Positions 13,664 to 18,648 of a DNA stretch of 64,000 nucleotides are shown here, one piece after another. The first letter of the stretch is position 1; every line of letters starts with the position of its first letter. A program made the translations under genes and the position numbers. Under the pieces are notes generated by a model. It saw nothing but the letters and a program-made list of their open reading frames with translations, did not search any database and was not told where the DNA came from. The stretch is from Variovorax paradoxus (lineage in GTDB: Bacteria > Pseudomonadota > Gammaproteobacteria > Burkholderiales > Burkholderiaceae_C), in assembly GCF_029919115.1 (NCBI RefSeq), contig NZ_CP123990.1:2480001-2544000 (forward strand). The letters are read 5' to 3'.

Positions 13664-16912
<3,249 letters not shown>

Positions 16913-16913
16913 C

Positions 16914-17471
16914 TTATTTATCCTTGGTGAAACCGATGCCGCGGCCGCTGTAGGCGCCCGGCTTCGGCTCATCCATCAGTTGATGGATCGCGTTGAATAC
17001 ATCGCGAAAGTTCTGGTCGTATCGCTGTTCCAGCGCGTTCAGCTTGCGCTTGAGATCGGCGTGCTCCGACAGCATGCTGCGCAGCTTGACAAAGGTACGC
17101 ATGATCTCGATGTTGACGGCCACGGCGCGTTCGCTGCGCAGCACGCTCGACAACATGGCCACGCCCTGTTCGGTGAATGCCACGCTGCGGTAGCGTGCGC
17201 CGCCGGAACCCGGCTTCTCGGGTTTTGAGATCACAAGTTGTGATCTCAAATTCTCGAGGTCCTGGTTCTCCAGGGTAAAGGCAAAGTCCGCGGGAAAGCG
17301 ATCGAGGTTGCGGCGCATGGCCTGCAACAACACCCGGGCCTCGACGCCATAGAGCGCGGCAAGGTCCTGCGCCAGCATGACCTTCAGGCCGCGCAGCACA
17401 TAGATCTTGCCCTCGGCATCGCGCAAGGCGGCGATGACCGAGACGTCGAGCACCGCGGGTGCATCAGCCAC
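16914..17471 (-). CDS. ORF6N-domain DNA-binding protein inserted between carA and carB
   Basis: A 185-residue protein starting at GTG 17471 (GGAG 7 bases upstream), which overlaps the last codons of carA by 8 bases. Residues about 14-108 match the ORF6N domain of phage antirepressor-type proteins: [20 protein letters not shown], a long basic helix with [17 protein letters not shown], and the hallmark [19 protein letters not shown]. Residues 128-165 look like a coiled coil. The stop is one base before carB and its last codons carry carB's ribosome site. ORF6N proteins are usually phage-borne or solitary, and I know no role for one in carbamoyl phosphate synthesis. Regulation of the operon is speculation. 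Confidence 0.85.
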
Positions 17472-18648
17472 GTGCCTGCTCCATGAGCGCGGTGAAGCGG
17501 TCGAACAGGTAGCCGATGTCGTGCGGGCCGGGCGAAGCTTCCGGGTGGCCCTGGAAGCAGAACGCCGGCTTGTCGGTGCGCGCAAGGCCCTGCAGCGTGT
17601 TGTCGAACAGGCTGATGTGGGTGGCGCGCAGGTTGGCCGGCAGCGACTTCTCATCGACCGCGAAGCCATGGTTCTGGCTCGTGATGCTCACGCGGCCGTT
17701 GTCCAGGTCTTTCACCGGATGGTTCGCGCCGTGGTGGCCAAACTTCATCTTGAAGGTCTTCGCACCCGAGGCCAGCGCCATGATCTGGTGCCCCAGGCAG
17801 ATGCCGAAGGTGGGAATGCCGGTTTCGATGAGTTCCCTCACCGCGCTGATCGCGTAGTCGCAGGGTTCCGGGTCGCCCGGGCCGTTGGCCAGGAAGATGC
17901 CGTCGGGTTTGAGCTTGAGCACGTCGGCAGCGGGCGTTTGGGCCGGCACCACGGTAATGCGTGCGCCGCGCTGCGCGATCATGCGCAGGATGTTCTTCTT
18001 GACGCCGTAGTCGAACGCCACCACGTGGAACTTGGGCGTGATCTGCACACCGTAGCCGGGCTTGCCGTTCGAGTTCACGAGCTTCCACTCGGTTTCGGTC
18101 CACTCGTAGGTCTGCTTCACCGAAACGACCTTGGCCAGGTCGAGCCCGGCCATGTTGGGCGCGCCCTTGGCGGCGGCAATGGCCTTGTCGATCAGCGCCT
18201 GCGTCACGGCTTCGCCCGTGGCCAGGCCCAGGATGCAGCCGTTCTGCGCGCCATGGGTGCGCAGGTGGCGAGTGAGCTTGCGGGTGTCGATGTTCGCAAT
18301 GGCCACCGTCTTGCCGGCCACGAGGTATTCGTTCAGCGTCGCGGTCTTGCGGAAATTGGATGCGACGAGCGGCAGGTCTTTGATGATCAGGCCAGCGGCA
18401 TGGATCTTGTCGGCTTCGATGTCTTCCCCGTTGACGCCGTAATTGCCGATGTGCGGATACGTGAGCGTCACGATCTGCTGGCAATAACTCGGGTCGGTGA
18501 GGATTTCCTGGTAACCGGTCATGGAGGTGTTGAACACCACTTCACCGGTCGTGGAGCCGGCGGCTCCGATCGAATTGCCTTGAAAGACCGTGCCGTCTGC
18601 GAGCGCCAGGATGGCGGGCGGGAAACTTCCCTTGAGAGACAAAAGCAC
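17464..18648 (-). CDS. carA: carbamoyl-phosphate synthase small subunit (glutamine amidotransferase)
   Basis: A 394-residue subunit that hydrolyses glutamine and channels ammonia to CarB. The N-terminal CPSase domain contains [16 protein letters not shown]. The C-terminal class I amidotransferase has nucleophile Cys284 in GICLGHQ and the His368/Glu370 pair in GHPEASPGP. Translation starts at GTG 18648, preceded by GGAG 7 bases away. It is first in the carA-ORF6N-carB-Kdo hydroxylase-greA-DUF4149 series. Confidence 0.97.

Follow-up and report, generated by a model that had tools for sequence, protein, structure and literature searches.

Closest described systems and the locus

The described systems nearest to the ORF6N gene considered here appear, by analogy, to be C.Kpn2I with respect to mechanism and BstA/aba with respect to a DNA element of its own within the gene. 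This ORF6N gene lies between carA and carB in a stretch of 64,000 nucleotides (nt) of Variovorax paradoxus contig NZ_CP123990.1 (positions 2,480,001 to 2,544,000; this whole stretch is referred to as the window). As judged from sequence, its product is very probably a small helix-turn-helix (HTH) protein binding a palindrome of 25–27 base pairs (bp) in its own coding sequence; we infer binding itself, the dimeric state and the purpose from the patterns set out below.

C.Kpn2I has its binding site in its own coding region, where polymerase is stalled, and its authors suggest that intragenic sites of this type could be common in C.Kpn2I-like proteins (PMC6237814). The proposed ORF6N site is likewise intragenic, whereas C.Kpn2I is a restriction-modification controller and not an ORF6N protein, the neighbours of the window gene being carA and carB, and binding and stalling have been measured for C.Kpn2I but are deduced for ORF6N. 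BstA belongs to the same loose KilA-N-like network and also has a short cognate DNA element in its own locus; this element, aba, overlaps the gene start, contains direct repeats and serves self-immunity in phage defence, whereas the ORF6N element is mid-gene and palindromic, with bases that follow the helix (PMC8585504). Moreover, the window protein is without KilA-N, as only ORF6N and a sub-threshold Phage_pRha match were found in Pfam up to E 1. The ORF6N/Bro-N network comprises phage and satellite proteins that are domain-swapping and DNA-interactive, and the window protein carries the same Pfam domain, ORF6N (PMC10111431). This domain (PF10543) is matched at residues 22–110 with E 1.1e-27 and 96.6 bits against a curated cut-off of 27.8, and PHROG 4792 (phage antirepressor) at residues 17–166 with E 3e-27. 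Iyer 2002 is reportedly the source of these domain names. In the case of LacI, O3 is not part of the lacI coding sequence, unlike the site proposed for ORF6N. This repressor is comparable in limiting its own gene by blocking elongation at O3, a self-limiting elongation roadblock as proposed for ORF6N (PMC3711431). Searches of the open-licence literature found no report of internal palindromes or a recognition code in ORF6N/Bro-N genes, which may have been noticed earlier elsewhere.

A palindrome inside the ORF6N gene

The window gene encloses a perfect 27-nt palindrome, TTTGAGATCACAA-C-TTGTGATCTCAAA. A regulator site upstream of carA, where the original prediction would have had it sought, was not borne out, as the sole match to the palindrome pattern in the window (≤3 mismatches; 0 matches in 100 shuffles) is the one inside the ORF6N gene. 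This intragenic copy is also the sole symmetric match in the 5.8-Mb genome, the one other match having 3 mismatches and lacking symmetry.

The palindrome recurs throughout the family and is not a by-product of the encoded peptide. In 120 unique segments anchored on the protein motif alone (153 open reading frames (ORFs) minus 9 unanchored and 5 other-frame ones, identical segments merged), a mean of 11.2 of 12 pairs is formed against 5.1 after synonymous reshuffling, with p ≤ 0.01 for 116 of the 120 when codons are reshuffled by each gene's own usage. Among 171 non-redundant ORF6N genes (228 merged at >85% identity, the best palindrome being taken between the helix and the FTE motif), 162 form 10 or 11 of the 11 pairs, a further eight form 8 or 9 and the fragment L046 forms 5; restriction to loci from the protein search gives at least 10 pairs in 139 of 148, while the palindrome threshold is reached by only 4 of 440 controls, which were 45-codon windows from unrelated ORFs of the same loci. 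The 19 copies from the genus show zero synonymous changes in the arm codons, with variation at the central Q codon (CAA in 11, CAG in 8). Five ORF6N proteins (L066, L071, L077, L078 and L079) contain the palindrome-coded segment twice.

It is the DNA rather than the peptide that is kept, since pairing is preserved via compensatory changes and in 12 of 170 genes the palindrome is translated in a different frame, giving peptides such as EVVANCDHL or ELITICDK. The mismatches at pairs 3–12 comprise 12 G-T and 29 A-C; because G-T is not favoured over A-C, a double-stranded site is favoured and an RNA hairpin disfavoured. A hairpin acting in the mRNA and a motif purely at the protein level are thus very improbable alternatives, even though the transcribed palindrome would form a hairpin and the peptide LRSQxVTS is common in the family: besides the mismatch counts, the destruction of pairing by synonymous reshuffling and the other-frame palindromes, which keep the same base code (see below), argue against this pair of readings.

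Correspondence between the predicted recognition helix and the palindrome bases

Among the protein columns outside the palindrome-coded stretch, the best predictors of the palindrome bases lie in one short helix (residues are numbered as in the window protein; the first co-variation set left out two segments with fewer than 9 pairs). In an AlphaFold model, the code residues are located on a predicted helix, residues 45–54, after a turn. Arginine at residue 54 accompanies C-G at pair 3 in 161 of 161 genes, and N, S or H accompanies A-T in 6 of 6. For residue 50 and pairs 4–5, Q corresponds to CA (107) or TG (2), E to CG (27/27) and D to CG (1), while the basic residues correspond to GC (14), TC (3), AC (2) and AT (1) for R, and to TC (7), GG (2) and GT (1) for K. 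Lysine at residue 46 goes with G at pair 7 in 93 of 93, arginine with A in 45 and G in 12, and G, F, S, T and I mostly with A. Residue 93, outside the helix in the loop after it, co-varies with pair 10, the commonest combinations being R:G (112), R:A (3), K:A (22) and K:G (3). Within the lineage located at carAB, the window protein with R46 and R93 has the site TTTGAGATCACAA, and L141 and L132 with K46 and K93 have the site TTTAAGGTCACAA.

Rules drawn from the discovery set held in 31 of 32 and 28 of 29 cases at loci outside it, which include the pattern-fetched loci L177–L201, L398 and L476–L484 (L150, misread by the helix pattern, was left unscored). Nine plasmid genes, from Bacteroides, Parabacteroides, Haliovirga, Sulfuricurvum, Butyrivibrio and Treponema, fit in 9/9 at pairs 4–5 and in 7/8 at pair 7, the helices of L520, L522, L525 and L526 being read by eye; the fit of L520 is limited to one arm, and a chance palindrome elsewhere in this gene outscores the site (10 vs 9), while L525 has glycine at the pair-7 residue. 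On a tree built without the helix and palindrome columns, 22 changes occurred at pairs 4–5 and 28 at pair 7, and supported independent pairs agree with the rules in 5–6 of 6 (sign test p 0.03–0.06) and 6–7 of 7 (p 0.016–0.03), respectively, the opposite never being found. Among the genes with the palindrome in another frame, 11 of 12 follow the residue-50 and residue-46 rules and the twelfth (L212) follows the residue-54 rule; as these genes obey the rules though their palindromes code other residues, the link is not one between two parts of the protein.

The same correspondence bears on whether the palindrome might be a self-spreading repeat whose insertion into coding regions is tolerated. 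Rickettsia palindromic elements are repeats of this kind. ORF6N genes are not the only place where long palindromes of the same sequence are found (2 of 10 sites in 398 genomes lie elsewhere), and like palindromes lie in frame in some phage genes (viral contigs L299, L308 and L313; also L422, L466 and L471), but the palindrome keeps one position in the protein from phylum to phylum and its bases track the recognition helix, which leaves this explanation hardly credible. The phage genes concerned contain up to three such palindromes each, coding VADCDLK or EVTNCDLK. Two further occurrences are a palindrome 55 nt past the ORF6N stop in L479 (796–860), with flanks common to an orphan palindrome in another genome (L481), as though both belonged to a longer repeat, and a like palindrome in what by eye is an apparent tRNA variable arm in L474 (1656–1682).

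Proposed autoregulation from an intragenic operator

The explanation preferred here, which is probable as a whole, is a dimeric HTH protein acting on an intragenic operator and regulating itself by roadblock. A dimer would read the palindrome 234 nt into its own gene, and the bound dimer would halt RNA polymerase some 230 nt into the gene, resulting in negative autoregulation, which is the likely purpose of the binding. Such an operator would travel with the gene, which could then live in a foreign operon and need no promoter there. In the carA-ORF6N-carB row, the roadblock would stand 325 nt upstream of the carB start and might reduce transcription of carB as well; no other step is as speculative, and a real effect on carB is possible though somewhat doubtful. 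The suggestion of a domesticated regulator stands in part, as the protein looks like a DNA-binding regulator; a role in carbamoyl phosphate synthesis is hypothetical. Some genes have palindromes 5' of the start in addition to the internal one, namely L525 (at -29, near-identical), L521 (at -58, alike) and L524 (at -74).

Several observations weigh against this explanation. Of the 57 genes with residues of the R46 type, 12 have G at pair 7, and only 6 and 7 contrasts are phylogenetically independent. In 4 of the 19 genus orthologues an R-to-K replacement breaks one pair. The nine-codon palindrome, centre included, has a pooled synonymous rate of 0.115 against 0.188 elsewhere, which is not the lowest of the gene, as windows at the gene ends show fewer synonymous changes, down to 0.030. 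The pre-start palindromes of L524, L006 and L061 differ in class from the internal one, so that flanking copies are not all cognate, and a crude scan for a sigma-70-like promoter found none.

The same binding could instead serve BstA-like defence with self-immunity, in which invading DNA is the target of the protein and the internal palindrome, as a cognate element, spares or neutralises it in the way that aba does for BstA. The top PADLOC match of the protein is PDC-S05 (E 2.9e-49), from a putative candidate class that a 2026 paper terms unvalidated for most members; ORF6N genes are patchily spread (43 of 299 genomes of the family), and L526 has a type I methyltransferase region on one side and hsdS on the other. 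BstA itself combines a KilA-N(-like) domain with a cognate DNA element in its own locus, but this element extends from -29 to +34 with direct repeats and is not a mid-gene palindrome (PMC8585504). The ORF6N protein is also short and without a second large domain, and its gene is kept in a housekeeping operon by three genera. Defence is an unlikely purpose compared with autoregulation.

Arrangement of carA, ORF6N and carB, and selection

The ORF6N frame is real, extending from a GTG start (17471–17469) to a TAA stop (16916–16914), and all three elements of the interlock described in the original prediction were confirmed (Table 1): the start lies in the end of carA, whose TGA stop (17466–17464) creates the 8-nt overlap GTGGCTGA; a single base separates the TAA from the carB ATG (16912–16910); and AAGGA, the likely carB ribosome site 8 nt 5' of this ATG, falls within the final ORF6N codons. 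The statement that carA and carB normally abut was nearly right, as gene-free genomes show an 8-nt carA/carB overlap, ATGCCTAA, instead (20/20 genus genomes opened, from the 76 with a carB match and without an ORF6N copy).

Table 1 Features of the carA-ORF6N-carB region in the window
Feature	Position	Strand	Basis
ORF6N gene, GTG start, 185 codons	16914..17471	-	ORFs, Pfam, 19 genus orthologues
carA, end overlapping ORF6N start by 8 nt	17464..18648	-	
carB, ATG one base past ORF6N stop	13664..16912	-	
Overlap GTGGCTGA, ORF6N start/carA stop	17464..17471	-	Same length as carA/carB overlap of empty sites
AAGGA, likely carB ribosome site	16921..16925	-	Read from sequence
Perfect 27-nt palindrome, centre 17237, encoding residues 74–83; proposed ORF6N operator	17224..17250	unstranded	Pattern scans, co-variation
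Codons of predicted recognition helix, residues 45–54 (R46, V47, Q50, R54)	17310..17339	-	Co-variation, AlphaFold
R93 codon, GG-A-R-Y loop, co-varying with pair 10	17193..17195	-	Co-variation

A close copy (84–100% identical) is present in 19 of 101 genus genomes and lies between carA and carB in all 19, with the carA overlap kept and carB right after the stop; further ORF6N genes are present elsewhere in genus genomes. When carA- and carB-like ends were sought at 167 ORF6N loci, both were found, besides the genus copies, at L141 and L132, from two further genera of the same family, and otherwise only at the duplicates L001 and L137. L141 is 59% identical and has an 8-nt carA overlap as in the window, with carB 3 nt past the stop, while in L132 (63% identical) 431 nt of other DNA (2052–2484) separate ORF6N from carB. 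The arrangement is probably older than the genus, because orthologues lie between carA and carB in these two further genera. Over the 171 pairs among the 19 genus copies, the nonsynonymous rate (dN) is 0.025 and the synonymous rate (dS) 0.229, and the ratio of 0.109 is near that of carA (0.123; carB 0.033). With this ratio and the preserved interlock, the gene is under selection; the preserved frame and coupling and the selection first suggested are supported by the synteny and the orthologues, and a neutral insertion that became fixed is contradicted.

The junctions also bear on the idea that the palindrome is a recombination or mobility site, recognised by the ORF6N protein or another enzyme. 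The gene is highly mobile, two palindromes occur in some genes (the five named above), and core-type palindromes are found near the ends of others (L006, L054, L068, L002, L035, L061 and L136). The carA/carB junction, however, shows neither a target duplication nor a fixed end, the site is mid-gene, and Pfam shows no catalytic domain in the protein, all of which makes such a role quite improbable beside an operator. An array of several core-type palindromes lies directly upstream of the ORF6N gene in L236 (863–970).

Origin and spread of the ORF6N gene

ORF6N is a travelling gene, mostly in cellular genomes. At least 573 relative stretches were found in cellular genomes, in a scan that may omit records very near the genome of the window, and the 80 loci kept are 48–62% identical and come from many phyla. 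Relatives occur in 5 of 50,697 phage records, at 13 loci in a scan of viral contigs and in 21 of 72,556 plasmid records. The descent from phage antirepressors that had been assumed is hypothetical for this stand-alone type, its phage and viral-contig relatives being few against the cellular ones, and the window gene is not phage- or prophage-encoded, as it sits in the carAB operon like those of the 19 genus genomes. The plasmid genes are likewise set tightly in gene rows: L526 directly precedes the hsdS of a type I restriction locus, and L522 and L524 overlap the next gene by 8 nt.

Sister families and significance

Internal palindromes of at least 10 of 11 pairs are found in 21 of 30 RhuM genes (L551–L600) and 11 of 23 Bro-N genes (L528–L550), counted over whole genes and hence with a chance rate above that of the ORF6N windows. 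When the aligned position alone is considered, 30 of the 52 non-redundant RhuM ORFs, some of them fragments, form at least 10 pairs and a further 13 form 9. In the 35 of these 52 with at least 9 pairs and the helix present, helix residue +3 corresponds to pairs 3–4 as E:GG (13/13), L/M/Q:AG (11/12) and K/R:CA (7/9). Tentatively, self-addressed mobile genes might make up a large share of the Bro-N network, namely ORF6N, RhuM and some of Bro-N, each gene enclosing a palindrome read by the decodable helix of its own protein; such genes would be promoter-independent and self-limiting at any site and, once fixed between host genes such as carA and carB, would act as a feedback valve on the gene that follows.

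ORF6N, RhuM and Bro-N proteins occur widely and have been characterised little; the word ORF6N appears in 5 papers of the literature searched. The code, legible in sequence, provides every such ORF6N gene with a predicted binding site that is directly testable, and the conservation of peptides such as LRSQxVTS would be explained by their being in-frame translations of DNA sites. Provided that autoregulation holds, the case illustrates how a mobile gene brings its control along internally and settles in a housekeeping operon.
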